Source of the DNA: Burkholderia pyrrocinia
GTDB taxonomy: Bacteria > Pseudomonadota > Gammaproteobacteria > Burkholderiales > Burkholderiaceae
DNA length: 64,000 nucleotides
Direction: 5' to 3'
NCBI RefSeq assembly: GCF_018417535.1
Contig: NZ_CP070978.1
Span: 2,914,001-2,978,000, forward strand
Below, piece by piece: positions 7,348-28,344 of the stretch (the stretch's first letter is position 1; each line of letters begins with the position of its first letter). Under the pieces are notes generated by a model. It was not told the origin of the DNA and made no database searches. It saw only the letters and a list, made by a program, of their open reading frames with translations. Both the position numbers and the translations under genes were made by a program.

Positions 7348-7356
7348 GAGATGAGT

Positions 7357-7920
7357 ATGTTGGATATCGAGGAGCATAAAAAATATCTCGAATCAGTTCT
7401 AGCTGGAGCGAAGCTCGATAACCTTGCTCGTTTTGGCGTGTGGTGCTGTGTTGGTCTCGCTCACGATGAGTCAATATTCGAATTCCTGTCGAAGCAAGCA
7501 GGGGGTACAAGTACGCAGCTCAGGCACCGAGTAGGCGATTACTTGGATCAAGTCTGGAATGGAAAAGAAAACTCCAATCCACTAAGCGACTTAGAGCAAA
7601 TTGAATGGGACCCTGATGCAGTCGAAATCGACGACGACGCTGCGGCCCAGGGAGCGACCGATTTGCTGGCGGGACTATCTTTTTTGGCGAAATGGTGTGC
7701 AGAACATAAGATGGAGCGACTGGTCGCATGCGCCGAGGTTTTGATAAACCGAATCGACTACTTGGAGAGTTTTGAGTTGATTGGAGAACATGTTGCGAAT
7801 CCAGTTGATCATGAGATGAGCGTGCAGAAGGAATTTGCTCGTGAACTCGTTGCAGGTACCTTGACTGATCATGACAAGATGAAATATCACGAGTGGTTAT
7901 TCAATCTCGGTACCCCCTGA
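7357..7920 (+). CDS. Probable cognate immunity protein of the Rhs deaminase toxin
   Basis: A 187-residue acidic, mostly helical soluble protein directly behind the effector. ATG 7357 is preferred over the in-frame ATG 7351, because an AGGAG sequence at 7346-7350 would touch the earlier codon but sits 6 bases before 7357; that Shine-Dalgarno overlaps the rhs stop. The central 'LEQIEWDPDAVEIDDDAA' stretch and the helix after it loosely recall DUF416 proteins, but I am not certain of that family. The first gene after a polymorphic toxin tip is normally its immunity gene, and the lower GC content matches that of the toxin tip. Confidence 0.75.
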   Translation: MLDIEEHKKYLESVLAGAKLDNLARFGVWCCVGLAHDESIFEFLSKQAGGTSTQLRHRVGDYLDQVWNGKENSNPLSDLEQIEWDPDAVEIDDDAAAQGATDLLAGLSFLAKWCAEHKMERLVACAEVLINRIDYLESFELIGEHVANPVDHEMSVQKEFARELVAGTLTDHDKMKYHEWLFNLGTP

Positions 7921-7942
7921 ATCATGAGCTCAAGGAACAAGC

Positions 7943-8416
7943 GTGCAAACGATTGACCTGTTGATCTCCCATAGTCAAATCGTAGTTCGATCCAGGCCGT
8001 ACGATGAGGGTTTGAGCCAATGGGGAGCGGGCAACATTGATCAGGGCGCGGTGTTGCACGCCGACTACCTTATTTTCGATCCGCTTCCGGACGATACCTT
8101 CGGTGCAAAGGTGTACTTGCGGGTGGTGGATAAGTTCGAGATGGACGAGCGGGCCGCACGGTGCATTGTTGCGCCGTTTCGTATTGAAGATCGCAATTCG
8201 CTCGAAGTCGCCTCGGCGACCGAAAAATTCAAGATTATGCTGGAGCTGCCGCTTAACTCGTACGACGTGTATTACGAGGTTTGCGAGGGGGAAGAGGTTT
8301 TCTATAAATTCACGTTTGCTTCAGAAGCGGTTCATCGGCAAGCAATGTATTTGCGTGATGACCCTTGGCGGGGCAAGAAAGACAAGCCGCTTGTAGCAGG
8401 GAGGTTTGACAGATAA
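7943..8416 (+). CDS. ComJ-like protein, probable orphan nuclease immunity gene
   Basis: A 157-residue protein starting at GTG behind a weak AAGGAA signal. Its start, 'IDLLISHSQIVVRSRPY', followed by an 'LSQWGAGNIDQGAVLHAD' block, resembles ComJ of Bacillus subtilis, which inhibits the DNase NucA. ComJ-like proteins also occur as immunity partners of NucA/NucB-type toxin tips. No NucA-type nuclease is visible next to it, so it probably protects against a toxin that this strain has lost or that neighbours deliver. The family call is by remembered resemblance and needs a profile search. Confidence 0.6.
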   Translation: MQTIDLLISHSQIVVRSRPYDEGLSQWGAGNIDQGAVLHADYLIFDPLPDDTFGAKVYLRVVDKFEMDERAARCIVAPFRIEDRNSLEVASATEKFKIMLELPLNSYDVYYEVCEGEEVFYKFTFASEAVHRQAMYLRDDPWRGKKDKPLVAGRFDR

Positions 8417-8471
8417 CTTAGATTCGGTTGCTCCTTGGGTTAACTGGACCAAATTCGCAGTGATCTTGCCG

Positions 8472-9405
8472 GAGCGACTGACAGCAAAGGAGTCCGGGCG
8501 CGAGCGCTGCGAATACGTGAGCACCGATTGTCTGTGGGATGGCGTGCGGCTTGTACAGGAGATGTAACACGACAGGAGCGGCGAAGAGGCGCTGACCTAC
8601 CGGTACGAGTCGGGCAGCTACGTACGGCTGGCGCGGATCGACCAGAATGCACCAGCTGCCAATAATGCCGACGCGCGGGACACTGTCAATTATTTGGTTC
8701 AACGCGGAATTCCGGGCAACGCGGTGCAGGAGGAATGGATCGCGCGGGCAACTGCAGCGATCGACGCCGGGATGGGGCGAGGGGCAGGAGGCGGCGCCAA
8801 CATCTGTCCATGTACCAAGACCGCAGAACCTGCGTTTCCAAGACGAGTATCTGGATCGGGAAACGGAGCTGCACTACAACACCTTCCGGTTCTACGACCC
8901 GGACATCGGGCGATTCGTCAATCCCGATCCCATCGGGCCGGCCGGCGGCGCAAATCTAAATTACTATGCAGGGAATCTGCGGACATGGATCGACCCTTGG
9001 GGATGGTGCCGTCGAGGCAACCAGGCGACCAAGAACCATATGGACACGGTGAGAGATCAATATCTTGCTGATAATCCGACTCATACCCACGTTGCTGGTG
9101 GGTGGAACTCTATTACTGGAGCAGAACGCCCGGAGACCTATCTGCCGCCGTTAAATGGGAGCGGACGAAAGGGCAGTTCATATACAGATATGACGTTCCA
9201 AGATCAACAAGGTAATCCTATTTATATCCAGACGGTTGATAAGGGCTCCGCGAACGGAATGTTGCAACGCGAATGGACGAATGCGAACCGCATCACACAA
9301 CAAGATCCGAACGCGATTGTCGTCACGATCGTAAAGGGAGCACCTCTTCAACCCGGCGACTTGAATACGGCGACAATAATGCCTGGAACAGTTGCCACTC
9401 GATGA
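8472..9405 (+). pseudogene. Displaced rhs 3' fragment with a second, different toxin tip
   Basis: This is a broken second Rhs end. From 8472 the frame reads 'ERLTAKESGRERCEY' (as in the core around 5527-5575) and jumps directly to 'STDCLWDGVRL' (core around 6405), so about 830 bp of core are missing. TAA at 8565-8567 interrupts it, about 60 bp are lost again near 8690, and the frame changes between about 8790 and 8815. From there it is open through 'DPDIGRFVNPDPIGPAGG' and 'WIDPWGW' to a new tip of roughly 130 residues ending at 9405. The tip has 'SSYTDMTFQ' and 'IYIQTVDKG', reminiscent of a PD-(D/E)xK-type nuclease, but this is weak. It could act as a recombination reservoir for the intact rhs gene. 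Confidence 0.8.
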
Positions 9406-9424
9406 TGATAGTAAGGAGGTCATT

Positions 9425-10021
9425 TTGACCACTAAGATGCCGACGTTGCAGACCTTTATGACCAATGCCGATGAGGCGGCATTCTCGGACTTTCTGAAAA
9501 CGCATATCCCTAGTGTCAAATTTATCGACTCATATATTTGGAATTCCCCGGTCCCTCCAGCATATAATAGTATGACTGAATGTCATGGTCAGCCATTTTC
9601 AAATATCGTGATCATCAACGAGGAAATTTGTTCCGTTGAGCGTTATGCACGTGAATTCATTGCACCTCATCCCGGTGGGTCTGGTTATATGGGGTCCATG
9701 GAGGGCCCGGGAGCAATCCAGTTTCTTCGGTCGCGAGAAGCGGACTATGCGCCGGAATGTCTTCGAGACGGCCGTTTGGCGGCATCTTATGACCCCGCCA
9801 TCGATCCGGCAACCGATGTTTTTGTCAAGATGACATGGAACGTGTTCAAGAAATTTGCGCACAAGACATTCGTCGTCAACCGCGAGACGGGTGTGGTGAA
9901 TGAAAAACCGGAGTCTCGTTTTTTTGCGGAGCCGGATGCGGCAGCGAAATTCGATGGCATGCACGGGCACTATCTAACAAACAACGCGTTCTTCTACCTT
10001 GTAGCCAAATCACCCAAGTGA
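9425..10021 (+). CDS. Probable immunity protein for the displaced Rhs tip
   Basis: A 198-residue protein not recognised as a known family. TTG 9425 is chosen as the start because GGAGG at 9415-9419 lies 5 bases upstream; the frame is open a little further, to TTG 9392, which would overlap the toxin end. It begins 20 bp after the displaced toxin tip, the usual toxin-immunity order. It is soluble, with aromatic-rich strands and no signal peptide. Base composition is AT-richer than the flanking core genes, as is common for exchanged immunity genes. Retention of an intact frame behind a broken toxin suggests selection for protection. Confidence 0.65.
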   Translation: MTTKMPTLQTFMTNADEAAFSDFLKTHIPSVKFIDSYIWNSPVPPAYNSMTECHGQPFSNIVIINEEICSVERYAREFIAPHPGGSGYMGSMEGPGAIQFLRSREADYAPECLRDGRLAASYDPAIDPATDVFVKMTWNVFKKFAHKTFVVNRETGVVNEKPESRFFAEPDAAAKFDGMHGHYLTNNAFFYLVAKSPK

Positions 10022-10052
10022 GGGAAATTTTGGCAGCAGTAGATCTGAGCTT

Positions 10053-10391
10053 ATGAAAATTTATCGTTCAATTCAGGACCTGCTTATTGATCTCGATAGT
10101 CTCAATTGGGATTCTGCGCTATTTATTGATCAGAGCGCATGGGTGGTCAATCCTCAGCACGCAGAGATTCTTTATTTGGAAGGAGACGATGAGCTCGAGG
10201 ATATTGTTCCCGGCACACACCTTCCAAAAATTGCAAAAGATCACGGAATGCGGCAGCTATTCGACCTGGAAGCGTTTAGGGACATAGTTAACTTCGAGCG
10301 GAAGCGAAACCCAACTGCGTCGATCGCCGAAGTCATTTACGCTCTGAACTATTACCGAGAGAAAGACGATTTTTATGATCCGCAGCACTGA
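10053..10391 (+). CDS. Small acidic protein, immunity-like, paralogue A
   Basis: A 112-residue soluble acidic protein of unknown family. It aligns from end to end with the protein at 10537-10881: both begin with a short 'M-K/Q-I-Y/F' strand, keep an Asp-Trp or Asn-Trp step near residue 20, and end with 'YYRE-D/N-D/E-F'. No toxin precedes it. Position within a run of orphan immunity genes and loss of flanking rhs DNA suggest it once followed an Rhs tip. The Shine-Dalgarno is weak (GAG at 10047-10049). Function as an immunity protein is inference. Confidence 0.6.
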   Translation: MKIYRSIQDLLIDLDSLNWDSALFIDQSAWVVNPQHAEILYLEGDDELEDIVPGTHLPKIAKDHGMRQLFDLEAFRDIVNFERKRNPTASIAEVIYALNYYREKDDFYDPQH

Positions 10392-10417
10392 CCGCAAGCC
10401 TTTATTGACGAGAAAGA

Positions 10418-10447
10418 CGGATCGGTAAGTTCAACAGTGGCTATGCA
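10418..10447 (+). repeat. Scrap of rhs core between immunity genes
   Basis: These 30 bases translate to RIGKFNSGYA and match the intact Rhs core at about 6374-6403 (RIRKLNGGYA), with 23 of 30 bases identical by eye. The reading frame is dead on both sides. It looks like residue of an Rhs end that once preceded the next immunity gene. Confidence 0.5.
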
Positions 10448-10536
10448 AGGCATCGCGGCTATCACCCGAAGGGCTGCGGTGGACGAAAAACGTGGGGTGG
10501 TGGTAATGGTTGTGGATGATTAATGCAGAGGAGGTT

Positions 10537-10881
10537 ATGCAAATTTTCAATTCTCTGGTTGAGTTAATTGAAGATATTCCATCTTTGCCGGGAAAAGATT
10601 GGATTTATACAAACTTGGATTCGTGGAAAAGTGGTCCGGAAAAAACAAAACTCTTCTACATTCCATGGAATTACATTCAAGATCTTGAGGATGATGAGAT
10701 TTATCTGGATGAAGAGGGTATGGAGATGCCGAAGTCGGTTGAAAAATGCAATTTGAGATGCTGGATGTTGGTGAATCAATTGGGTTATATTTTAAAGAAT
10801 AAGGTCGATAGAGGTGAGGGTGTGAAGTGGTTTGTCGAGGAAATAGATTATTATCGCGAAAACGATGAATTTAGAACTTGA
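10537..10881 (+). CDS. Small acidic protein, immunity-like, paralogue B
   Basis: A 114-residue acidic protein. ATG 10537 is chosen over the upstream TTG 10510 because GAGGAGG at 10528-10534 precedes it closely and because the alignment with its paralogue at 10053 begins there (MQIFNSLVELIEDI against MKIYRSIQDLLIDL). It is one of the most AT-rich genes in the window, unlike the surrounding Burkholderia DNA, which points to recent transfer. The end 'YYRENDEF' is shared with the paralogue. The family is unknown to me; an immunity role is inferred from place only. Confidence 0.6.
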   Translation: MQIFNSLVELIEDIPSLPGKDWIYTNLDSWKSGPEKTKLFYIPWNYIQDLEDDEIYLDEEGMEMPKSVEKCNLRCWMLVNQLGYILKNKVDRGEGVKWFVEEIDYYRENDEFRT

Positions 10882-10933
10882 AATTTAAATATCGAATCAT
10901 TTTTGCAATACTTGCCGATTCAACGATTCGGAT

Positions 10934-10964
10934 GCTATGTGCCGCTCGCACACATTGACCGGGG
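10934..10964 (+). repeat. Second scrap of rhs core between immunity genes
   Basis: Eighteen bases (10934-10951) are identical to the intact rhs gene at 6500-6517, and the following bases keep the protein pattern (CYVPLAHIDRG against SYVPLARIDQG). No open frame continues. As with the first scrap, it sits directly before an immunity-like gene. Confidence 0.6.
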
Positions 10965-10991
10965 TGTGTGCATTGGTTGGGAGTTGGTTTT

Positions 10992-11435
10992 ATGGAAAAA
11001 CAGAACAACTTGACGTTGCCCGAGGATTGGTGCGAATTTTCGCGCCCCCACTTGGAATGTGATTTTGACCATACGCGAATGCAGGCGGAACTTGAAATTG
11101 AGCTCCACCCGGGTCACCCATTTCATGGGTACAAGCTGAAGGTGATAGCACATGCCATCAGTAATGACGACGTTCTATGTGCTCACACAGAAGAGTCTGG
11201 GCGTTACTCGATAATTCACCTGACATGGAGAGGGAGGGCGGAGATAGGCAGCTGTCCAACCATCGATTTCGATGGCGACTGGAACAGCGTTTGTCGCTAT
11301 TTTGGCTTTGTCACTAAGGTGCTAGCTCAGGTTGCAGAAGACGAGCGTCTGGGACTACGGAAGCCAATGACGAAGGCGGGAACGTCTTCACAGCCTGTAG
11401 TTACTCGTTATAACGAACAGGATGGCATCGAGTAG
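10992..11435 (+). CDS. Hypothetical protein, immunity-like
   Basis: A 147-residue soluble protein of unknown family. ATG 10992 is preferred because GGGAG lies about 8 bases upstream; the frame is open to ATG 10968, but that would overlap the end of the rhs scrap region. The body is rich in beta strands with Trp and aromatic positions ('HLTWRGRAEIGSCP', 'DFDGDWNSVCRYFGF'). It is the last gene of the post-rhs series and has no toxin in front. An immunity role is inferred from location. Confidence 0.55.
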   Translation: MEKQNNLTLPEDWCEFSRPHLECDFDHTRMQAELEIELHPGHPFHGYKLKVIAHAISNDDVLCAHTEESGRYSIIHLTWRGRAEIGSCPTIDFDGDWNSVCRYFGFVTKVLAQVAEDERLGLRKPMTKAGTSSQPVVTRYNEQDGIE

Positions 11436-12049
11436 ATCGGCGCAGTCCTATGGGAGCCTCGCGCTACGACTATTGGGAGGGCTCGCGGCAAAACGCTACG
11501 CGGTCTTTACCTAAAGCGGCCTGCTCCCGGCGGTTAGTACGGTGACGGTGTGAAGTCTGTTCCAGAGAGAAACGGCCACCTGTTCAAAAGAAATAATTTC
11601 ACCAGGGTATACCCGTTGGACGGAGAATTTGCCGAATCTGTTCGCGGATAGCTACGCCGCCCTCGCGCGTCACGCGCTCCCCGGTAGGTGTGTGCTGGCG
11701 CGTTCTCCAGCCTGCGGCGCGCGCGTGGTGTCCGGTCGATGGTCGGGCGACGGAGCACCGGAGACTGCGCCGCTCTGTTCGCAAACGACCGTAAGTCGCA
11801 GGCATTCGCGTGGTAAATCGAGACTGTCTAATGTTCCTCGGTAGGAAACATTGCTCTACACAATAGCGGAGCGATTGGATTGGGTCGGACTGAGCCGCAC
11901 AGGTTCGACCGGGTGCGGCCAGGAAGGGACGATTGTGGTGCACTCCCGACTGGCCGTTCGTGGTGTGCGAAGCAGCTCGTCGGACACATGTCCCTTGGGT
12001 TACCACCGCGGTTTACCTAAGATCAATCTAACCACAACGGGGACAAATC
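11436..12049. other. Intergenic stretch without a convincing gene
   Basis: About 610 bp between the last immunity-like gene and a small-protein operon. No frame has coding-like codon use plus a ribosome binding site. A partly matched inverted repeat (AATGTTCC at about 11829-11836 and GGAAACATT at about 11845-11853) surrounds a short loop. No transposase trace was recognised. The last 50 bp should hold the promoter of the gene at 12050. Confidence 0.5.
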
Positions 12050-12202
12050 ATGGCAAAGAAACTGACCGCGACAAGCAAAGCAGTGAAGCACGCAGCAGGC
12101 GAGGCTTTACGAAAGCCCACTAGTGTCACAAAAAAGCAGGTGCAAAAGCTCGCTGGCTCGGTTGAAGCCCACATCCAGCCGCGCAATAAAGCGAAGAAAT
12201 GA
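12050..12202 (+). CDS. Very small basic protein (50 aa), first gene of a two-gene operon
   Basis: A 50-residue Lys/Ala/Thr-rich protein (start MAKKLTATSKAVKHAAGEAL, end RNKAKK). GGGGA at 12039-12043 lies 6 bases before the ATG. Its stop overlaps the ATG of the next gene as ATGA, strong evidence that it is translated. The composition, with repeated Lys and helix-forming residues, suggests nucleic-acid binding, similar in style to small histone-H1-like or ribosome-associated peptides, but no family was recognised. Confidence 0.55.
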   Translation: MAKKLTATSKAVKHAAGEALRKPTSVTKKQVQKLAGSVEAHIQPRNKAKK

Positions 12203-12441
12203 ATCCCGACTGCAAACCTCTTCGTGCCGGAGACTATGTAATCAAACCCATCGCTGAACCCATGGCGGACGGCACATTCGGCGCCTCTGTAACGATCATC
12301 CGAGACCGGGGAATCAAGAACATTGCGGAACAATGGTTCCCTGCGCAGCGCTATTTTGCATCAGAGGCAGAAGCTTGTCAGGAAGGTGCACGGATTGGCT
12401 GGTCACTCGTCAATGGCTACGTGATGGGTCTTGACATATAG
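12199..12441 (+). CDS. Small hypothetical protein (80 aa)
   Basis: An 80-residue soluble protein translationally coupled to the 50-residue protein by a 4-base ATGA overlap. It reads as a compact beta-beta-alpha domain: 'DYVIKPIAEPMADGTFGASVTI' is split over two strands, then a helix rich in Ala/Glu ('ASEAEACQEGARIGWSLVNG'). This layout is seen in small uncharacterised Burkholderia proteins that carry a strand pair and an EA-rich helix. No signal peptide or membrane span. Function unknown. Confidence 0.6.
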   Translation: MNPDCKPLRAGDYVIKPIAEPMADGTFGASVTIIRDRGIKNIAEQWFPAQRYFASEAEACQEGARIGWSLVNGYVMGLDI

Positions 12442-12650
12442 CGGCGCAGCATCTATCGAACGAAACGGTTCGTGTGAAGGAAAAACTGCAGAGGTAGTCA
12501 GCACTTCACAGCCACCCTTGGGCCAGACCAATAGGCCAAAAATGCTGTGACAAAGAATAAAACGCTGCGGCATCTGATCGATCTGTCGCAAGACTTGATT
12601 CGGGTGATGAGATCTATGTTCGTTCAGTCTGGCGCATTAAGGAGCATACA

Positions 12651-14462
12651 GTGAAGCTGTGCAAACTGCGCATTCGAAACCTACGTTCGATCAAAGATAC
12701 CGGCGAATTTCCCATCACTTCGATGTTCGGGCTCGTAGGTGAGAATAATACTGGTAAGTCTACGATATTAAAGGCTATTGAGGTAGTGCTGTCGGCCGGT
12801 GCGGCGCGTCTCACGCCAGAGGACCTTAACTCCGATGCCGAGCCGATTATTATCACGGCTGCTTTCGATGGGTTGTCTGCGACAGACAAGGTTCGATGGC
12901 GTCCATATCTCGTCGAGGATCAACTAATACTCGAGAAGCAGCTTACGCTCGTGATCGACGATCGAACTGGGAAGGAGAAACTCGAGGCGGAGTTTCACGG
13001 TTACAAGGCAGAGCCCAAGGAGTGGTTCCTGTCAATGTCGAAGATTCAGGAACGACACGGCGATCGTCCGAAGTGGGCTGACATCGTAGGGGAGGCTGGT
13101 CTGCCTGACTATTTTCTTGAGGGTGGCAAGGCAACGAAGTCCAGCTACGTGAAGGCACTTTCGCGGTACCTACTCGAAAACGAGGTGGCGTTCGATGCTC
13201 CGGACCTTAGCCATACGCAAGCCCTAGGACTGCAAAGCAACGTAATAGCTGCACTTCCACGAGTATATCTCCTGCCGGCCATTACTGATTACTCAGACGA
13301 AGTGGACCGCAGATCGTCAAATTCGACGTTCCGTCGGCTGATGGGCACGTTGTCTGAGCGCATATTGGAGAAGGATCCGCGTTTCGCGGAACTTCAAGAA
13401 GCCCTATCAAAGATTAGGGCGTTGCTTAACCGCAGCACGTTGCAAGACGCACCCCCTCGGATCACTTCGCTGAAGCAAGTCGAGGATCGGATCGGTGAAA
13501 TCCTCTCTCGCGTTATGCCGTCGGTCAAGGGCGTCGCCCTTTCGGTTGAGGTGGATGACATTAAGGACCTGTTTGCGGCCGGAGTGGCATTGTCCGTTGA
13601 CGATGGTATTAATACGGATGTTCTGGCGAAAGGACATGGGCTCCAACGATGCGTTGTGTTCTCGTTGCTACAGACACTCATTCTGAACGAGCGAAATCAG
13701 CTTATTCCACAAGAAGCAGAAGCGGCGCTTCTTCCCGATCCAATCATCTTGCTTGTGGAAGAACCAGAACTCTACCTGCACCCGCAGCTTTCAAAGATTT
13801 TCTCGGATGTGCTTTCTGTCTTTTCCGAAACAGATCAGGCGGTTTATACAACTCATTCGCCATGGTTTGTCGACGCGTACCAATCAGAGCGCGTCGCGAT
13901 CGTGTCCAAGCCAAGCCTTGATGTGGGTACGAAAGTTCGAAGTTGTAACCGAAGTGCATTTAACGGGCTCACTGAACGCAAAATTTTCCAAGGTTTCACT
14001 CGATTGAACCCGGCGATGAACGAGCTGTTTTTTGCGACGCGTGTGCTATTGGTGGAGGGGCCCGAGGATCTAGTGGCGGTTACTTCTATCTTGCAAAGAG
14101 CCGGGATTGTCCGCGTGCGGGCTGAAGAACTTGGTTGGTCCATTCTCGTCTGTGGCGGAAAGCCATCTATTCCGTTCTTTCAGCGCGTTCTAAACGCATT
14201 TACCATCCCGTACGCGGTGATGCACGATCTAGACGAGGCCGAGGGAATGAACGAGAACGACAAGGCCACGAACAAGTTACGCAACGACGCTATCACGGAA
14301 TTGGCTGGAGTGAATCCAATCTACACGTTCCCAGTGAGGCTGGAGCACTCTCTAGGTGTAAAACAGCACTTTAAGGAACAGTATGATGCCCATGCCTATT
14401 TTTCCACGGTCGATGTCATTCCAGAAGATGTGCAAAAACTTGTACTGAAGATATTTTCGTAA
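12651..14462 (+). CDS. OLD-family ATP-dependent nuclease (AAA ATPase plus TOPRIM)
   Basis: A 603-residue protein that starts at GTG behind AAGGAG (12639-12644). The N-terminal SMC/ABC-like ATPase has Walker A 'GENNTGKST' near residue 30, Walker B 'ILLVEEPELYLHP' near 366 and the switch His in 'YTTHSP' near 400. The C-terminal TOPRIM nuclease shows 'VLLVEGPEDLVA' near 468 and 'MHDLDEAEG' near 526, the metal-binding acidic residues. OLD proteins are DNA nucleases; P2 Old blocks phage lambda, and related GajA works in Gabija defence. No UvrD-like GajB partner follows, so this is a solitary (class 1-like) OLD protein. Location in an accessory island fits a defence role. Confidence 0.88.
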   Translation: MKLCKLRIRNLRSIKDTGEFPITSMFGLVGENNTGKSTILKAIEVVLSAGAARLTPEDLNSDAEPIIITAAFDGLSATDKVRWRPYLVEDQLILEKQLTLVIDDRTGKEKLEAEFHGYKAEPKEWFLSMSKIQERHGDRPKWADIVGEAGLPDYFLEGGKATKSSYVKALSRYLLENEVAFDAPDLSHTQALGLQSNVIAALPRVYLLPAITDYSDEVDRRSSNSTFRRLMGTLSERILEKDPRFAELQEALSKIRALLNRSTLQDAPPRITSLKQVEDRIGEILSRVMPSVKGVALSVEVDDIKDLFAAGVALSVDDGINTDVLAKGHGLQRCVVFSLLQTLILNERNQLIPQEAEAALLPDPIILLVEEPELYLHPQLSKIFSDVLSVFSETDQAVYTTHSPWFVDAYQSERVAIVSKPSLDVGTKVRSCNRSAFNGLTERKIFQGFTRLNPAMNELFFATRVLLVEGPEDLVAVTSILQRAGIVRVRAEELGWSILVCGGKPSIPFFQRVLNAFTIPYAVMHDLDEAEGMNENDKATNKLRNDAITELAGVNPIYTFPVRLEHSLGVKQHFKEQYDAHAYFSTVDVIPEDVQKLVLKIFS

Positions 14463-15083
14463 GGAACATCACCCCCGTATCGTAATAAGCGGGCACGCAA
14501 AACAATCGATGACTTGCCAGCGATCTACATGAGATGGATGTCCGTTTGACCTCGTAGACCAGCCTGTGAGGCGGAGCAGGAGGAACGACCGGAGTGGGTC
14601 GATATCGGTCTGATTGAGATGCTGAAACCGGACATCAACCGCAGCAATTTCCGGTGCCCCGCACGACTACAAAGATTGAGCAGCAGTCGTACCCGTATCG
14701 ACACGAACTCATACAGTTCGTCCGATCCAATCGAACTGTTTCGAATAGTCAAGTTCTGATCAATCGCTCACTGTGACAGATCGACGTGCGCCATCAGCTC
14801 TCGCAATGGCCGCAAGCATTGCCCTCGTTCGTGCCTATAACCAACGGCTAACGTGTGCTCATGCGACGAACACTGTCTAATAGGTAATGTCCAACCGATG
14901 ATGATCGCGCGCGTGGATGGATACGCTGCATACTCTGATCCACACGTCGAAGCCCTGTTTCCAACGAACCACCAACAAAGGAGGAATCCGAACCATCAAA
15001 ACGCCGCGGTAAACGAGCGCGGGCCGCAAGTGCTACCAACACTCACGACCCGCTAACCACAGCCAACTTTCAAGGAGTTGCCC
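14463..15083. other. Intergenic stretch before symE-like gene
   Basis: About 620 bp. A short coding-like stretch at roughly 14570-14670 reads 'ERPEWVDIGLIEMLKPDIN' on the + strand but lacks a start and is closed by stops, so it may be a gene remnant. In enterobacteria the symE leader hosts an antisense RNA (SymR); the last part of this stretch, which contains an isolated AAAGGAGG near 14979, is where to look for an equivalent. I see no definite promoter. Confidence 0.4.
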
Positions 15084-15302
15084 ATGGCTAAGGCGAATCA
15101 TAAAGCACGACCACCGAAGACGGAACGTTTCGTAACGATCCAGGAAATGTGGGGTACGCCGAAAACGGACCTCAAGCCGGAGAAGTTCTACCCGTACATG
15201 AAGATTGGTGGAATGTGGCTGATCAACGATGCGTGTTTTGTCCCGGGCCGAAAGGCGCAAATCGTTATTGAGCCTGGCCGGCTGATCATCACGCAGTTGT
15301 AA
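15084..15302 (+). CDS. SymE-like toxin of a type I toxin-antitoxin system
   Basis: A 72-residue protein. ATG 15084 follows AAGGAG (15072-15077) by 6 bases and is preferred over TTG 15078. The C-terminal half has the SymE pattern: 'YPYMKIGGMWL', then an Ala/Phe-x-PG-x-K/R turn and 'VIEPGRLIIT', an AbrB/MazE-like fold. In E. coli, SymE is an SOS-induced RNA-associated toxin controlled by antisense SymR, and later work links it to nucleoid condensation. SymE-like genes are often found next to rhs and T6SS loci in Burkholderia, as here. No antisense RNA could be identified by eye. Confidence 0.75.
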   Translation: MAKANHKARPPKTERFVTIQEMWGTPKTDLKPEKFYPYMKIGGMWLINDACFVPGRKAQIVIEPGRLIITQL

Positions 15303-21094: not shown

Positions 21095-21795
<701 letters not shown>

Positions 21796-21803
21796 CGGTC
21801 GAT

Positions 21804-21836
21804 GCCGCCGGCTTGCAACGGGCCGGCGGCGCTTTC
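21804..21836 (+). terminator. Hairpin at the end of the liv operon
   Basis: GCCGCCGGC (21804-21812) pairs with GCCGGCGGC (21822-21830), followed by a weak T-stretch (CTTTCGCCTT). It lies 8 bases behind the livF stop and between convergent genes. The same hairpin is conserved in the livF remnant at 26725-26751. Confidence 0.65.
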
Positions 21837-21872: not shown

Positions 21873-22727
21873 TCATTGTCCGATCCTGAACGTGCTTTTC
21901 AGCACGTCGCGCAGATGCAGCGCGGCGCGATTGCTGTCGTCGGTCAGGATATAGATCAGGTGCGGCGGGAGATCGGGCAGGACGATCCCCGCGACGTTGC
22001 TCGTCAGGTTGCCCGAGACGCGATCGTGCTCGATGAGGCCGACCGCGAGGCCGTTGGCGATACAGGCTTCGACCGCCGGCGAACTCGCGCTCTCGAGCAG
22101 CATCCGGTGCGCGATCCGCTCCTTCTTCAGCGCGTTCAGCGCGGTGTCCCGGTACGGGCATCCCTGCAATTGCACCGCGATCGGCAGCGGTGCGTCGGGG
22201 TTGAACTTGAACGTTCGCGCGGCCACCCAGACCGGATGGGTCTTGCTGAGCAGCTCGCCATGCGGCAGCGCTTTCGGCACCACGGCGATCGTGATGTCCA
22301 GTTGGCCGCGCGCGAACAGGAGCTGCAGTTCCTCGCTGGAACGCGCTTCGACCGTCAGTTCGAGCAATGGCCGGTCGGCGGCAAAGCGCGGCAGGAACTC
22401 GGCCATGAAGTGCGCCGCGTAGGAGTCCGGGATGCCGAGCCGCAGCTTGCCGGTCAGCATCTGCGGCGACAGCGATTCGACGAGCCGGTCGTGGCTCAAC
22501 AGGAACTCCGTGGTGTCGCTCAACAGTTTATGGCCGTACTGCGTGAGTTCGACTGCCTGATTGTTTCGCGTAAACAAGCGCTGCGCGACCATCTCTTCCA
22601 GCTTCTGAATCTGGGCCGTGACCGACGACGGGCTGCGGTTCACATAGACGGCCGCGTCCTTGAAGCGGCCGAGCTTCGCGACGGCGTGGAAGGTACGCAG
22701 CAGATCGACGTCCAGGGTGCGCGGCAT
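21873..22727 (-). CDS. LysR-family transcriptional regulator, divergent from the methyltransferase cluster
   Basis: A 284-residue regulator. The N-terminal winged HTH covers residues 6-64 ('LLRTFHAVAKLGRFKDAA', 'RSPSSVTAQIQKLEE'), and a periplasmic-binding-like effector domain follows from about 90. It is transcribed away from the methyltransferase gene with 134 bp between the two starts, the usual arrangement of a LysR regulator and its target. It therefore probably controls the three-gene cluster at 22862-25794. The co-inducer is unknown. Confidence 0.9.
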   Translation of the reverse strand: MPRTLDVDLLRTFHAVAKLGRFKDAAVYVNRSPSSVTAQIQKLEEMVAQRLFTRNNQAVELTQYGHKLLSDTTEFLLSHDRLVESLSPQMLTGKLRLGIPDSYAAHFMAEFLPRFAADRPLLELTVEARSSEELQLLFARGQLDITIAVVPKALPHGELLSKTHPVWVAARTFKFNPDAPLPIAVQLQGCPYRDTALNALKKERIAHRMLLESASSPAVEACIANGLAVGLIEHDRVSGNLTSNVAGIVLPDLPPHLIYILTDDSNRAALHLRDVLKSTFRIGQ

Positions 22728-22861
22728 GATTTTGATTTTCCGAATTAGTGATTCACGTAATCTCGATTGACGGAATTATTAAGCCTCCCTATCCTCGGGT
22801 CAACAGGCAGACGAATGCAGGCAGGTCGATCGAGCGTGACACGTATCCGGGGAACGATTTC

Positions 22862-23842
22862 ATGTCTATCAATGATTTTGTCGTAGATGCGCTGGTGCGG
22901 GACAGGAAGCTGAAGGCGGAGTCGGTATGGACGGTCGAGAATCACGAAAAGTATTCGACGCTGACGCGGCGTGACGATGGCGCACGGCGCAGGGAGGCGG
23001 GGCGCGAAGTCTTTTCGCTGATGCGGAACCTGAACGAACTGGGCGTGCGGAGTCCGGCGCTGTGCGCGGACCGCGACGGCAACGGATCGCTGAGGGAAGC
23101 GATCGGCGCGTTGAGCGAACGTCTTGCGACGTTGTCGCGCGGCCGTCATGTGCACTACATCGAACTCGGGCCGGAGCCGGTCAAGACGACCGAGTTGATG
23201 AAGGCCGTCAGCGGCGGCGAGCCGAATCACTTGCGTTACACGGCCGTCGACATCAACGAGTCGTCGGAAGAAGCGATGCGGCACGCGATCATGCCGTTCC
23301 TGAAGACGCCCGGCTGTTTCAACTACATCGCCGACGATTATCGGAACGTGCAGTGGAACCATATCGACCTGGGCCAGGACGTGACCTTCATCACGATGCT
23401 CGGTTTCCAGGAGGGCAACGAATTGCCCGTGACGATCGGCCGGCTGATTCGCAATCTCGGCGGCAAGTCGACCTACGTCGTGTCGGAGATGCAACTGCTC
23501 GTCGAGGGCCGCGAAGAGCCGATCTACAACTTCTACCAGAACGAGAGCATGGTGCGGTTTTCCGAAATCGTCAGCCGGCAGCAGGGCTTCGAGCCGCTCG
23601 GCGAGCATCATGTTTCCATCGTCCGGCTCAACCTGCTCGGCGACCAGTTTCATGTTGCAGTTACGTTGCAGCCGGTGTCGAAAGCCGGCGCCGACGGGCA
23701 TCTGATCACCAACGTCTGCCTGAAATACACGCCGGAGCAATTCCGCCACGTGCGTGCCAGTCACGGCAATTGCCGCGTGATCGACGAGCTGCGCAGCGGG
23801 GACGGCAGCGTCGTGTACCAGATCGCCCAGTTCAAGGGCTGA
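22862..23842 (+). CDS. EgtD-like SAM-dependent methyltransferase (Methyltransf_33 type)
   Basis: A 326-residue protein, close to the 320 or so residues of EgtD. The SAM-binding strand-turn 'YIELGPEPVKTTELMKAV' lies near residue 98, with 'YTAVDINESSEEAM' near 125, matching the LG-x-G-x-x-x-KT and VDIS pattern of histidine N-alpha-methyltransferases. Residues near 'NYIADDYRN' and 'TFITMLGFQEGNE' follow the same family order. ATG 22862 is chosen over ATG 22748, because the longer form adds an unlikely 38-residue leader; GGGGAA lies about 8 bases upstream. The substrate is probably an amino acid or related amine, but this cannot be fixed from sequence. First gene of a LysR-controlled operon. Confidence 0.65.
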   Translation: MSINDFVVDALVRDRKLKAESVWTVENHEKYSTLTRRDDGARRREAGREVFSLMRNLNELGVRSPALCADRDGNGSLREAIGALSERLATLSRGRHVHYIELGPEPVKTTELMKAVSGGEPNHLRYTAVDINESSEEAMRHAIMPFLKTPGCFNYIADDYRNVQWNHIDLGQDVTFITMLGFQEGNELPVTIGRLIRNLGGKSTYVVSEMQLLVEGREEPIYNFYQNESMVRFSEIVSRQQGFEPLGEHHVSIVRLNLLGDQFHVAVTLQPVSKAGADGHLITNVCLKYTPEQFRHVRASHGNCRVIDELRSGDGSVVYQIAQFKG

Positions 23843-23871
23843 ATGCCGCAACGGCGAAAGCGAGGCACGCG

Positions 23872-24858
23872 ATGAACAAGGGGAATGCATTGCCGGTGTT
23901 TGCGCGCGGGATCGACCGGGTGAGGCTTGCGTTGCAGACTTCGCTGTCCGGCGGCGCGAATGTCGACGGCACGCTGGACGCGTCGACGGAGCCGATGCGC
24001 TGGACAAGCGATTGCCTGCGCGATGGCTACGAGGTGCGATATCGCCGCAACCTCGACGATCTTGGCTACCGCGACGAGCCGATGCGCGGCACGCGCACGA
24101 GCGCGCTCAACGCGGTGTGCAGCCTGCGCGGCCTGTTCGCCGACGAAGCGATCGACGCGTTGCGCGAGATCGGCCGGGCGCTGGAAGGCAGCGCGTCGAG
24201 CAGCAACTGGATCATCTCGAAGCGGGTGCGCGCGGTGACGCAGCGCTCGCGGTTCATCGACGACATGATGCACGACCGCGCGTTCCTGTTGAGGATATCC
24301 CGTCTCGCCGGCGCGCCGCTGATTCCGTATCCGATGGTCAATGCGCGGTCGCAGTTCAACTATTACTATCCGTCGGAGCGGCACGACGGCAAGGAACAGC
24401 TGGGCATGTGGCACACGGACGGCACCAGTTTCGTGCTGAATATCGTGCTGTCGGATCGATCCGATTATGCCGGCGGCAACTTTCTGTTCTACGAATCGAC
24501 CGCCGAGACGTTCGACCGGCATGATCGGGCACGCAAGCATGTGAAGACGGCGAGCCTGGACCAGGCGGGCGACGCGCTGCTCATCTACGGCAGCAAGCTG
24601 TTCCATGGCGTCGAACCGGTCGAGGCGGGGCGTCGCATGTCGCTGGTGCTGTCGTTCCATTGCCCGTATACGCGCGAGGACGATAACGGCTTCTGGCATC
24701 TCGCGTCGGACGACGGCATTCCGCGTACCGTCGTCAACTGGCTGGCGCTGCAACGCAGCCTCAGGGACGACGCCGACGTCCAGTACCAACGCCTCGGGCT
24801 CGCACCCATCCGGGCCGAGGACCTGAAAGACACCCGCTTGTCCACGGCAACACTCTGA
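23872..24858 (+). CDS. 2-oxoglutarate/Fe(II)-dependent oxygenase
   Basis: A 328-residue cytoplasmic enzyme of the prolyl-4-hydroxylase-like 2OG oxygenase fold. The iron facial triad is visible as H181-T-D183 in 'MWHTDGTSF' and H245 in 'LFHGVEPVEAGRR', with R254 or R255 positioned to bind 2-oxoglutarate. 'QFNYYYPSERHDGKEQLG' precedes the first triad residue, as in this family. It starts 29 bp after the methyltransferase, whose product is a plausible substrate for hydroxylation or desaturation. No non-ribosomal peptide or polyketide genes are nearby. Confidence 0.8.
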   Translation: MNKGNALPVFARGIDRVRLALQTSLSGGANVDGTLDASTEPMRWTSDCLRDGYEVRYRRNLDDLGYRDEPMRGTRTSALNAVCSLRGLFADEAIDALREIGRALEGSASSSNWIISKRVRAVTQRSRFIDDMMHDRAFLLRISRLAGAPLIPYPMVNARSQFNYYYPSERHDGKEQLGMWHTDGTSFVLNIVLSDRSDYAGGNFLFYESTAETFDRHDRARKHVKTASLDQAGDALLIYGSKLFHGVEPVEAGRRMSLVLSFHCPYTREDDNGFWHLASDDGIPRTVVNWLALQRSLRDDADVQYQRLGLAPIRAEDLKDTRLSTATL

Positions 24859-24870
24859 GCGCCTTCGCCC

Positions 24871-25794
24871 ATGCAGTTATTCCTGATCCAGCTTGTTTTC
24901 GTGTTGTCGTGGAGTTCCGGCTTCATCGGCGCCAAGCTCGGCGCGGAGACGGCAGGCGCGTTCAACCTGTTGTTCTGGCGTTTCCTGCTCGTGACGCTGT
25001 GCCTGGCGATCGTCCTCAACCGGCAGCTCGGGCGCCTGACGCTGGAAAAAATCCGCTATCACGCGGTGATCGGCTTCCTGTCGCAGTTCCTGTACCTGAG
25101 CTGCGTCTACGTGGCCATTCAGCACGGCCTGCCGCCGGGCATCGCGGCGGTCATCGCCGCGTTGCAGCCGCTCATCACGGCGGCGATGACGACGCTCGAA
25201 GGCAGCGAGCGCAGCGGGGCGCGACAGTGGGCCGGGCTCGTCGTCGGATTCGTCGGCGTCGGCATCGTGATCGGCGGGCAATACGCGCTGCCGACCGAGT
25301 CGGTCGGTATCGTCATGTACATCCTGCCGCTGGTTTCCGCGCTGGGGCTGTCGGTCGCGACGATCTACCAGCGGCGGCGCGCGCTGACGGCCGCGCGCAG
25401 CAACGAGGACGGGCTGTTTCTGCCGCTGTTCGTGCAGGGGGGCGTCAGCCTGGTCCTGTTCGCGGTGTGCGGGATCGTCACGGGCGACCTGCACGTGCCG
25501 ACCCAGCCGAATGTGTGGGTATCCGTCGTGTGGCTGACGGTATTCTCGACCTTCATGGCCTACCTGACGTTGTGGGCGCTGCTCAAGCGCATGCCCGCGA
25601 CGCGCGTGGCGACCCTCGTCTATCTCGAACCGCCCGTGACGCTGACCTGGGCCGCGTGGATGTTCGGCGACAGCATCCACGTGTCGACTTACCTCGGTAT
25701 CGTTGTCGTCGCGATCGGCGTGTGGCTGGCCAGCAAGCAAGGCGAGCGAACCGCCCGGGCCCGGCGCGCGGAAATGGAGGCGGCCGGCCGCTGA
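24871..25794 (+). CDS. EamA/DMT-family transporter
   Basis: A 307-residue inner-membrane protein with ten predicted hydrophobic spans in two EamA repeats. The first repeat begins with 'FVLSWSSGFIGAKLGAE' and the second closes with 'RVATLVYLEPPVTLTWAAWM'. This family exports amino acids and small metabolites. It starts 12 bp after the oxygenase gene, so it is part of the same operon and may release the product of the two enzymes. The substrate is not deducible. Confidence 0.9.
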   Translation: MQLFLIQLVFVLSWSSGFIGAKLGAETAGAFNLLFWRFLLVTLCLAIVLNRQLGRLTLEKIRYHAVIGFLSQFLYLSCVYVAIQHGLPPGIAAVIAALQPLITAAMTTLEGSERSGARQWAGLVVGFVGVGIVIGGQYALPTESVGIVMYILPLVSALGLSVATIYQRRRALTAARSNEDGLFLPLFVQGGVSLVLFAVCGIVTGDLHVPTQPNVWVSVVWLTVFSTFMAYLTLWALLKRMPATRVATLVYLEPPVTLTWAAWMFGDSIHVSTYLGIVVVAIGVWLASKQGERTARARRAEMEAAGR

Positions 25795-25859: not shown

Positions 25860-26210
25860 ATGAAAGTCAAACGGATCGTCGCCAATATCGACACGCGGTC
25901 GATCGGCGACGCCAAGCGCTTCTACCAGCAGATTCTCGGCCTCGACCTGTTGATGGAGCACGGCTGGATCGCGACGTACGGCAATGCCGAGCCGATGAGC
26001 GTGCAGATCAGCTTCGCGTCGCAGGGTGGGGCCGGGACGCCGACGCCCGACCTGTCGATCGAGGTCGACGATCTCGATGAAGCGCTCGCGCGTGTTCGTT
26101 CGGCGGGCATTCCCGTCGAATACGGCCCGGCCGACGAGCCGTGGGGCGTGCGGCGTTTTTACGCGCGTGATCCGTTCGGGGAGCCCGTGAATGTGCTGGT
26201 GCATCGCTGA
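25860..26210 (+). CDS. VOC-family (glyoxalase/bleomycin-resistance fold) protein, copy 1
   Basis: A 116-residue vicinal-oxygen-chelate protein with two beta-alpha-beta-beta-beta units ('RSIGDAKRFYQQILGLDLL' and 'IEVDDLDEALARVRSAGIPV') ending in 'RFYARDPFGEPVNVLVH'. VOC proteins use paired His/Glu or Gln residues to bind a metal. The copy at 27994 is nearly the same protein. AGGA lies about 6 bases before ATG 25860. It may act on a toxic small electrophile or drug, or only bind it; the substrate is unknown. Confidence 0.88.
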   Translation: MKVKRIVANIDTRSIGDAKRFYQQILGLDLLMEHGWIATYGNAEPMSVQISFASQGGAGTPTPDLSIEVDDLDEALARVRSAGIPVEYGPADEPWGVRRFYARDPFGEPVNVLVHR

Positions 26211-26237: not shown

Positions 26238-26597
26238 TTACGCATGCAACGCCAGCCCCTTCACCGCCTTGTCCACGGCCTTCTTCGGCCCGTGCAGCGC
26301 CAACCCGACCAGATCGAGATTTGCCGCATCCTCGGCGCGAAACACTTCGCGGTTGGCCGCATCGTGCCCGGTCGAAAACATCGTGCGCACGTACGGCACG
26401 ATCGTGAGTTCGCGCGACAGCGCCTGCCGGTGCGCGGCTTGCAGGCCGTTCAAATCGGCCGCGAACACCAGCATCGGCTGGCCGAACATGCGGCCGTAGC
26501 GATGCCCGGCCGCATCCTCGTAAGGCTCGCCGAGCGCTTCGGGTGCGCCGGCCGCGACGGCATTGAGTTTCTGCCACGCCGCGAGATCGTCGTGCAC
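26238..26597 (-). pseudogene. DUF2000 gene, 5'-truncated at a rearrangement joint
   Basis: The 119-residue frame has the DUF2000 pattern: 'GRMFGQPMLVFAADLNGLQ', 'ELTIVPYVRTMFSTGHDAAN' and 'LDLVGLALHGPKKAVDKAVK'. The family is usually longer by about 15 residues at the N-terminus. Here only a GTG at 26597 is available, 3 bases from the point where homology to livF begins (26601), and no Shine-Dalgarno is present in that remnant. The gene has therefore probably lost its start and its promoter. Function of DUF2000 proteins is not established. Confidence 0.65.
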
Positions 26598-26600
26598 GAC

Positions 26601-26757
26601 ACTCGGTGTGGCCGATCGCGGCTACGTGCTCGAAACCGGGCGCGTGGTGCTCGCGGATACGGGCGCGAATTTGCTCGCGAACGACCGGATCAAGCAAGGC
26701 GTACCTCGGCGGTTGATGAGGGAAGCCGCCGGCCTGCAATGGGCCGGCGGCGGTGCC
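26601..26757 (+). pseudogene. Remnant of the livF 3' end with its hairpin
   Basis: This stretch matches livF from about 21681 through the stop and on through the GCCGCCGGC hairpin to about 21836. It reads 'LGVADRGYVLETGRVVLADTG' divided over the open part, then has one extra A before the final codons that shifts the frame. There is no start, Walker motif or promoter. It abuts the broken 5' end of the DUF2000 gene, marking a deletion or insertion joint. Confidence 0.85.
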
Positions 26758-26812: not shown

Positions 26813-26940
26813 TAGCCAATTCGGCTTCGATCGTAGTCAAATCGGCTACATTCGACTGTTCCGTCGAGACCGACACGAAATCGGCATGGTACGACTATGC
26901 CTTGTAGCCAATTCGGCTACAATCGTAGCCAATCATGCTA
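26813..26940 (+). promoter_or_regulatory. Four TAGCC-N5-GGCTA-type operators before an HTH-nucleotidyltransferase gene
   Basis: Four 15-bp palindromic sites are visible: 26813-26827 (last base mismatched), 26834-26848 (one mismatch), 26905-26919 (perfect arms) and 26926-26940 (one mismatch). Members of each pair start exactly 21 bp apart, two helical turns. The last site covers the ATG at 26935. This is the expected look of an autoregulated toxin-antitoxin promoter bound by the HTH part of the downstream protein; the binding itself is inference. Confidence 0.75.
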
Positions 26941-27534
26941 CGATCCATCGCCTCGACCCTATTTAGTGACTACCGGCGCCGTGTACTGGGCCTGCTTTTG
27001 TTGCGGCCTGATCAGGCGTTGCACGTCCGCGAAATTGCGCGTTTGACGGGTACGACGCCCGGCACGCTGCACAAGGAACTGAGCAAACTGGCCGAAGCCG
27101 GCATCTTGAGCCGTGATCGGCAGGGCAATCAGGTGGTTTATCGCGCCAATCGCAGTTGTCCGATCTACGACGAACTGGCGTCGATCATGCGAAAGACCTC
27201 AGGGATGGGCGACGTGCTTGCCGAAGCATTGCTGCCTTGTGTCGGGCAAATTGGCGTGGCGTTTGTTTTCGGCTCCGTTGCGCGCGGCCAGGAGACGATG
27301 GACAGCGACGTCGACGTCATGGTTATCGGCACGGTCGGCTTTGCAACGGTAGTCCGATTGCTTTACGACGCACAGGCAACCTTGAGGCGAGACATCAATC
27401 CCAAGGTACTGTCGCCCGACGAGTTTCGCGATGGAGTTGCCGGGCAGGACGCTTTTTTGCAGGACGTCCTTGGAAAACCCAAGATCTTCTTGATTGGCAG
27501 CGACCATGACCTTGCAGAGCTTGCTCGGCGTTAG
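26935..27534 (+). CDS. HTH-nucleotidyltransferase (MNT) protein, antitoxin-like
   Basis: A 199-residue fusion. Residues 1-75 form an ArsR/MarR-like winged helix ('HVREIARLTGTTPGTLHKEL', 'GNQVVYRANR'). Residues 95-190 form a minimal nucleotidyltransferase with 'FGSVARGQETMDSDVDVMVI', containing the GSxxRG and DxD-type metal site. In MNT-HEPN systems the MNT protein AMPylates and silences the HEPN RNase; a DNA-binding domain on it would give autoregulation, supported by the four palindromes upstream. It overlaps the HEPN gene by 29 bp. A leader peptide start upstream was not seen. Confidence 0.85.
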   Translation: MLRSIASTLFSDYRRRVLGLLLLRPDQALHVREIARLTGTTPGTLHKELSKLAEAGILSRDRQGNQVVYRANRSCPIYDELASIMRKTSGMGDVLAEALLPCVGQIGVAFVFGSVARGQETMDSDVDVMVIGTVGFATVVRLLYDAQATLRRDINPKVLSPDEFRDGVAGQDAFLQDVLGKPKIFLIGSDHDLAELARR

Positions 27535-27952
27535 TCTCGATACGGTTCGGCCGGACCGAGAACAGGTGATGCGGTTGCTGGCGGCCGCAGAGCGAAATCT
27601 GGCGGATGCGCAACTCGCGGGATTGAGCAACGAAAACCGTTTTGATGCGGCTTATAAGGCGATCATGCAGCTTGCGATGCTGGCATTGCACGCGAACGGC
27701 TTTCGTACATTGACGAGCCGGCCGGGGCATCACCAGACGGCAATCCAGACGCTTCCGCAGACGATCGGTCTGGCGGTCGATCGCATGATCGTTCTCGATG
27801 CGTTGCGCAAGCAGCGCAATTTGTCCGATTACTCGGGGGATGTGGTGCAGACCTCTGCTGTGAACGAATGTTTTGTTAGCGCGACGTCGCTGATGATCGA
27901 CGTGGAGGCATGGCTGATGGCGAACAAGCCCGAGTTGCTGGGAGCTCGATAG
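27506..27952 (+). CDS. HEPN-domain protein, toxin-like partner of the MNT gene
   Basis: A 148-residue all-helical protein. ATG 27506 lies inside the end of the MNT gene (TTG 27494 is an in-frame alternative). The N-terminal helix 'VMRLLAAAERNLADAQLAGL', the central 'RFDAAYKAIMQLAMLALHANG' and the C-terminal 'LRKQRNLSDYSG' follow the HEPN order. Classic HepT RNases carry RX4HXY; here the residue after R-N-L-S-D is Tyr, so the catalytic His is replaced. It may be an RNase variant with a different active site or an inactive binding partner. Confidence 0.75.
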   Translation: MTLQSLLGVSLDTVRPDREQVMRLLAAAERNLADAQLAGLSNENRFDAAYKAIMQLAMLALHANGFRTLTSRPGHHQTAIQTLPQTIGLAVDRMIVLDALRKQRNLSDYSGDVVQTSAVNECFVSATSLMIDVEAWLMANKPELLGAR

Positions 27953-27993
27953 CCATTGCGTGTCGAATCGCAATCGCACAGAAGAGGAAACCG

Positions 27994-28344
27994 ATGAAGG
28001 TCAAACGAATCGTCACCAATATCGACACGCAATCGATCGACGACGCGAAACGTTTCTACCAGCAGATCTTCGGTCTCGACCTGCTGATGGACCACGGCTG
28101 GATCGCGACCTACGGTAATGCCGAGCAGATGGATGCGCAGATCAGCTTCGCGTCGCAAGGCGGGTCGGGCACGCCGACGCCCGATCTGTCGATCGAAGTC
28201 GACGATCTCGACGAAGCGCTCGCGCGCGTGCATGCGGCGGGCATTCCGGTCGAATACGGTCCGGCCGACGAGCCTTGGGGTGTTCGGCGGTTCTATGTTC
28301 GCGATCCGTTCGGCAAGCTCGTCAACGTGCTCGTTCACCGCTGA
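27994..28344 (+). CDS. VOC-family protein, copy 2
   Basis: A 116-residue protein that aligns without gaps to copy 1 at 25860, with about 15 differences by eye, mostly near residues 8-16, 46-50 and the C-terminus. AGAGGA lies 6 bases before the ATG. It is the second half of a direct duplication that brackets the DUF2000/livF joint and the MNT-HEPN pair. The substrate is unknown. Confidence 0.88.
   Translation: MKVKRIVTNIDTQSIDDAKRFYQQIFGLDLLMDHGWIATYGNAEQMDAQISFASQGGSGTPTPDLSIEVDDLDEALARVHAAGIPVEYGPADEPWGVRRFYVRDPFGKLVNVLVHR

Follow-up and report, generated by a model that had tools for sequence, protein, structure and literature searches.

A methyltransferase-oxygenase-EamA unit with a divergent LysR gene in Burkholderia and Pseudomonas, and the repeated retention of its regulator and exporter after enzyme loss

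The stretch of Burkholderia pyrrocinia DNA analyzed here (64,000 nucleotides of NZ_CP070978.1, hereafter called the window) lies on contig C2 of a genome of 8.54 Mb in three contigs, and contains a compact group of genes that an earlier note had proposed as a small biosynthetic unit. Its first gene, on the plus strand, encodes an S-adenosylmethionine (SAM) methyltransferase of 326 amino acids, hereafter abbreviated as MT (22862-23842, with an in-frame ATG at 22862). It is followed on the same strand by a 2-oxoglutarate (2OG)/Fe(II) oxygenase of 328 amino acids (23872-24858) and by an EamA transporter of the drug/metabolite transporter (DMT) group with 307 amino acids (24871-25794), whereas a LysR-type regulator, with HTH_1 and LysR_substrate domains above the Pfam cut-offs, is encoded divergently on the minus strand (21873-22727). 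The intergenic region shared by LysR and MT (22728-22861) contains a putative sigma70-like promoter, TTGACG-N17-TATCCT, at 22767-22795. The map of open reading frames (ORFs) in the window bears out the gaps of 29 bp between MT and 2OG and of 12 bp between 2OG and EamA, together with the divergent LysR, as the earlier note had described them. The nearest named relatives of the MT belong to Burkholderia cenocepacia, catarinensis, cepacia, lata and arboris (96-97%).

A scan of genome contigs with a 29-row MT alignment returned 52 loci: 10 in Burkholderia, 19 in Pseudomonas, one in Stenotrophomonas and 22 in other organisms, mostly Alphaproteobacteria. All 30 named loci of the first three genera combine the divergent LysR with MT and 2OG, and 29 of them have EamA too; the sole exception is P. 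cerasi (L022), in which ORFs that look transposase-like by eye occupy the place of EamA at 12200-15200. This four-gene arrangement is one unit, far beyond chance, so that the single functional unit and the place of the exporter in it, both claimed previously, are upheld. The genes around the unit, viewed by eye, are not alike in Burkholderia and Pseudomonas, and therefore the four genes delimit it. In all 22 distant loci a gene for a YbfB-type transporter of the major facilitator superfamily (MFS) adjoins the MT, on its downstream side in 21 of them and on its upstream side in L037 (Pfam was run on three). A divergent LysR accompanies 21 of these MT genes, the remaining locus (L037) being a contig of 3.3 kb. 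With the 2OG and EamA proteins of the window as tblastn queries (E <= 1e-5), neither matched in the examined flanks of these 22 MT loci. The exporter type is thus exchangeable, the YbfB-type MFS substituting for EamA at distant MT loci. The unit is also rare: the MT was found in one of 398 phylum-sampled and one of 369 class-sampled genomes, that one being the genome of the window itself, and on three records of a plasmid collection, all of them Burkholderia replicons of > 2.4 Mb typed as non-mobilizable.

Within Burkholderia, LysR and EamA (each at E <= 1e-90) occur in the identical 24 of 65 genomes. A full-length MT is present in 15 of these 24 and MT fragments in three more, and no genome with a full MT lacks LysR or EamA (0 of 15). 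The livF region was examined in 20 of the 50 genomes without full MT, including all nine that keep LysR and EamA, and in each of these nine loci MT and 2OG are gone or reduced to mere fragments. Their deletion breakpoints form about seven configurations, since L097, L098 and L099 appear to have a common junction and the six others are distinct. LysR remains open in all nine loci; EamA has its normal end in six, is cut by the contig end in one (L099), carries an extended C-terminus in one (L096) and shows a frame change near residue 248 in one (L095). Of the loci negative for both genes at this threshold, 11 were examined; fragments of LysR persist in two and of EamA in one.

A comparable situation is found in Pseudomonas, in which EamA (E <= 1e-80) is present in 46 of 398 sampled genomes. 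The 2OG gene adjoins EamA in 18 of these, 17 of which also have an MT match in the DNA examined (L156 does not), whereas LysR is directly divergent from EamA, with no MT or 2OG match, in the other 28. The co-occurrence of the genes that the earlier note had expected therefore holds in part: MT and 2OG accompany each other in the 30 named loci, but LysR-EamA stands without the enzymes in nine of the 24 EamA-bearing genomes of Burkholderia and in 28 of the 46 of Pseudomonas, and no 2OG was found at the 22 distant MT loci. In the phylogenetic tree of EamA, the enzyme-less Pseudomonas rows fall within enzyme-bearing lineages, as one row next to P. fulva (support 100), another single row, and groups of five (99) and 21 (96). 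The well-supported branches of this tree force at least three changes in Burkholderia and at least three in Pseudomonas. In the genome that branches next to P. fulva, an extended view (L185, which duplicates L147 and was left out of the trees) displays flanking genes known, by eye, from the putida group, which points to loss of the enzymes in place.

The region between the divergent genes also survives this loss. The putative promoter pattern TTGACG-N17/18-TATtCT is found in Burkholderia at each of the 11 enzyme-bearing loci analyzed, out of 15, and in eight of the nine enzyme-less ones, the ninth (L110) having a diverged form. Among the 15 enzyme-less Pseudomonas rows compared, the intergenic region of 14 from the fluorescens group is similar to that of enzyme-bearing ones, while the fifteenth (L147) has a longer region resembling the putida type. 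Since the intergenic regions are alike with and without enzymes, EamA now sits in the place of MT behind a similar control region. No motif common to all groups emerged when T-N11-A LysR boxes were sought.

Both retained genes evolve under constraint. In the group of 21 enzyme-less Pseudomonas, EamA has a median omega of 0.093 and LysR one of 0.080 (210 pairs each), values that reflect the time after loss because by parsimony all the divergence of this group should follow it. The group of five gives medians of 0.142 for EamA and 0.054 for LysR, and eight enzyme-bearing rows of the fluorescens group give 0.074 and 0.041, respectively. In enzyme-bearing Burkholderia, omega is 0.085 for MT (55 pairs) and 0.174 for 2OG (28 pairs, three longer rows being excluded). 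LysR and EamA are thus under purifying selection throughout, somewhat weaker after enzyme loss, and form a separable module that has been repeatedly retained under constraint, behind a similar control region, once both enzymes were lost.

The earlier note called the MT EgtD-type and named its removal from Methyltransf_33 (PF10017) by a profile search as a refuting result; the relation to EgtD is only a distant one at the level of the superfamily. Searched alone, the window MT does fall outside Methyltransf_33, one of the refuting results that the note had set, and no family of Pfam or NCBIfam is matched at E <= 1. Among 35 aligned MT rows (the window included, itself without match), 26 match Methyltransf_33 at E <= 1, the best at 1.8e-7; the PF10017 gathering cut-off of 23 bits is reached neither by the window MT (no score) nor by its relatives P0039 (19.4 bits), P0013 (17.1 bits) and P0050 (no score), and some MT relatives carry a precomputed PF10017 label. 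Scores for TIGR03438 also lie below its cut-off, for among three relatives tested P0050 alone showed the model, with 11.8 bits versus 290.9. An MT profile of 80 rows (the window and 79 of 120 matches listed) was compared by hhalign with two EgtD sets, one of 29 rows chosen by motif and a later one of 30 loci taken without motif filter from 67 genomes above the cut-off, that of the window included. Probabilities were 92.6 over 286 columns (16% identity) with the first set and 88.8 over 248 columns with the unfiltered set, for which the 2OG profile and the reversed MT profile used as controls gave 0.1 and 0.7 (with the motif-chosen set, 0.2 and 0.5). Weaker results count against membership in the superfamily: the probability was 2.5 versus a single EgtD row, and a profile search of the PDB retrieved EgtD at E 0.025 with one MT alignment and did not retrieve it with a larger one. 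By these profile comparisons the MT is a distant member of the wider EgtD superfamily, with homology along most of its length.

Its signature residues set the MT apart within this superfamily. A role is ascribed to E282 of EgtD. All 80 MT rows contain GPEP in the SAM loop and N186, the equivalent of EgtD Asn166. According to passages of PMC8593015, Asn166 touches histidine in EgtD together with Tyr56, Tyr206 and Ser284. At the position of the EgtD motif HTExS the MT has TNxC (N284 in 80/80 and C286 in 79/80 rows), versus conserved Glu and Ser in all 23 EgtD rows reaching the motif (seven of the 30 in the unfiltered set are too short). The MT is thus a branch of its own, and histidine is probably not its substrate. 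Unnamed fungal proteins are among its relatives, and the combination of GPEP and N284 is common to P0066, P0078 and P0088 (Acrasis, Aspergillus and Mycena). Neither EasF nor TrpM is the name of any fungal MT relative among the matches listed. In one metagenome protein, P0185, the N-terminal part of an MT continues in frame into the C-terminal part of a 2OG protein, which may be a deletion or an assembly chimera.

The oxygenase of the window scores under the Pfam cut-off for all 2OG families. The intact HxD...H triad reported before is nevertheless confirmed, for H181, D183 and H245, as well as R255 as the 2OG arginine, are invariant in 45 of 45 aligned rows (the window and 44 of 65 matches). 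At E <= 0.01, 27 of these rows match HalD and 15 match 2OG-Fe_Oxy_2 (PF10014). Oxygenases of the HalD/BesD type and of PF10014 act on free amino acids, and the matches are weak leads toward oxidation of a small amino acid. Among solved structures, no convincing match was detected by profile search, the best related chain being a PKHD-type hydroxylase at E 0.61. Halogenases of the HalD/BesD type have the Asp of HxD replaced; a halogenase was ruled out here by the conservation of D183 in 45/45 rows, and the intact Asp argues for an enzyme of the hydroxylase type. The transporter matches PF00892 with 89 bits versus a cut-off of 28.2, in two stretches corresponding to two domains, and resembles the carboxylate/amino acid/amine transporters of TIGR00950 (67.7 bits versus a cut-off of 230.2). 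EamA members of described function are mostly exporters. The archetype of the family exports O-acetylserine/cysteine, as stated in passages of PMC8707732.

Our preferred explanation, to which we assign a probability of about one half, is that the unit is run by LysR, makes and exports a methylated, hydroxylated amino acid, and includes a separable module of sensor and exporter that outlives synthesis, as self-protection would. The MT would use SAM to methylate a small amino acid at its amine, and the 2OG/Fe(II) enzyme may hydroxylate a carbon of the same compound, either before or after methylation. EamA would export the product and LysR, judging from the architecture, may sense the product or its precursor and switch the putative promoter. 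On this view the module would persist because it guards against a harmful product of neighbouring producers. A methylated and then oxidized, probably hydroxylated, amino acid had already been put forward in the earlier note and remains the candidate product.

Several observations weigh against this explanation. Substrate, product and activity of the unit are all predicted from sequence, and an EamA serving another metabolite would also give retention. The well-supported branches of the LysR tree force only one change in Burkholderia and two in Pseudomonas, and L097 pairs with L103 (support 99) in the tree of both kept genes despite its L098/L099-like junction; the number of loss events is therefore uncertain, with recombination or recurrence possible at L097. 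Moreover, at E <= 1e-90 neither LysR nor EamA is found in 41 of the 65 Burkholderia genomes, and the constraint in this genus is relaxed in pairs of the nine enzyme-less versus the 11 enzyme-bearing loci (EamA, 0.149 versus 0.098; LysR, 0.104 versus 0.047). The EamA of L095 and L096 indicates that the sensor-exporter module can decay too.

A more specific form of the preferred explanation is offered tentatively: the product could be a diffusible antagonist made by only two enzymes, an amino acid with methyl and hydroxyl groups whose chemistry is undescribed, and whose producers repeatedly become resistant non-producers by losing the enzymes while sensor and exporter stay on the same control region, in a producer/immune polymorphism across Burkholderia and Pseudomonas. 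The main rival, which we regard as possible and yet rather doubtful, views LysR-EamA as a general amino-acid efflux pair, with MT and 2OG as optional enzymes acting on that amino acid and retention reflecting everyday export. The pair standing alone in 28 of the 46 Pseudomonas genomes with EamA would be explained in this way, as would the likeness to TIGR00950; however, close relatives of the pair are patchy (EamA in 46/398 Pseudomonas and 24/65 Burkholderia genomes) and the enzyme-less states are nested in enzyme-bearing ones.

The control by LysR and the retention of the exporter would also fit detoxification, in which the enzymes alter a toxic external amino acid or amine that EamA expels, and are lost where efflux suffices. 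We consider this unlikely, given that the 2OG gene was not found in the 22 distant units and that two-step modification ahead of export is uncommon in detoxification. Less probable still is a public good, namely a shared solute or metal binder that the transporter of enzyme-less strains would take up by cheating; such a scenario would explain why synthesis is repeatedly lost while the transporter stays, but the unit is without visible receptor gene and the export function of most described EamA members, the archetype included, argues against uptake. A variant ergothioneine or histidine-betaine pathway is very improbable in spite of the distant EgtD homology of the MT, since HTExS is replaced (N in 80/80 rows), the unit has no gene for EgtB, EgtC or EgtE, and a true EgtD (420 bits, above the cut-off, with an adjoining ORF that is EgtB-like by eye) is present on contig C1 of the same genome; ergothioneine synthesis by the unit was ruled out on these grounds, in agreement with the earlier note.

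That note also knew of no described pathway with this exact gene set, and none was recognized in the open-access literature searched, subscription papers being mostly outside its coverage. LcsG was rejected, being annotated as PF00891, another family, in passages of PMC11193748. Passages of PMC13245600 on the lysine trimethylation of muscarine do not say which methyltransferase performs it, and passages of PMC12171316, PMC8719888 and PMC8262913 have no content tied to the unit.

The surroundings of the unit in the window show additional features. The 3' end of livF is duplicated at 21675-21831 and 26595-26752, flanking the unit, in two adjoining blocks that are 89% and 86% identical, as if the unit or its neighbourhood had arrived via an event copying the livF end. 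Two similar genes resembling, by eye, vicinal oxygen chelate (VOC)/glyoxalase proteins are located at 25860-26210 and 27984-28344 (87% identity over 300 nt). The first lies directly 3' of EamA and was left out of the unit because in Burkholderia it is found also at loci without LysR and EamA (L109 and L112). Two adjacent genes at 26935-27952 look by eye like a nucleotidyltransferase-regulator and its HEPN-type partner. Farther away, the GC content at 6000-14000 is 0.50-0.54 versus 0.57-0.73 in the rest of the window, which suggests acquired DNA.

The unit combines an apparently uncharacterized branch of the EgtD superfamily, fungal relatives included, with a single further enzyme, and in such a minimal two-enzyme unit the product should therefore be within reach of one co-expression experiment. 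Since both enzymes were lost repeatedly while sensor and exporter stayed, the scenario of producer, resistant and sensitive strains can be tested directly, enzyme-less strains serving as natural controls.

Compared with known systems, the MT shares with EgtD (Methyltransf_33, TIGR03438) the profile homology over 248-286 columns, the SAM-loop Lys, the Asn166 equivalent and the C-terminal KY, but differs in having GPEP in the SAM loop, TNxC for HTExS, only about 15-16% identity and a unit without ergothioneine genes. The oxygenase resembles the HalD/BesD-type and 2OG-Fe_Oxy_2 enzymes in its weak profile matches and 2OG/Fe triad, whereas it retains the HxD Asp and, in the window, stays under every cut-off. 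ArgP/ArgO and LysG/LysE are examples of a LysR-type regulator encoded divergently from an amino-acid exporter. In P. aeruginosa, an EamA protein is paired with an Lrp-type regulator (PA2577/PA2576, according to passages of PMC8707732). Our system is like such pairs of regulator and divergent EamA/DMT transporter in its layout and in its survival as a two-gene pair, and unlike them in its enzyme-bearing state, which has two enzymes between regulator and exporter.

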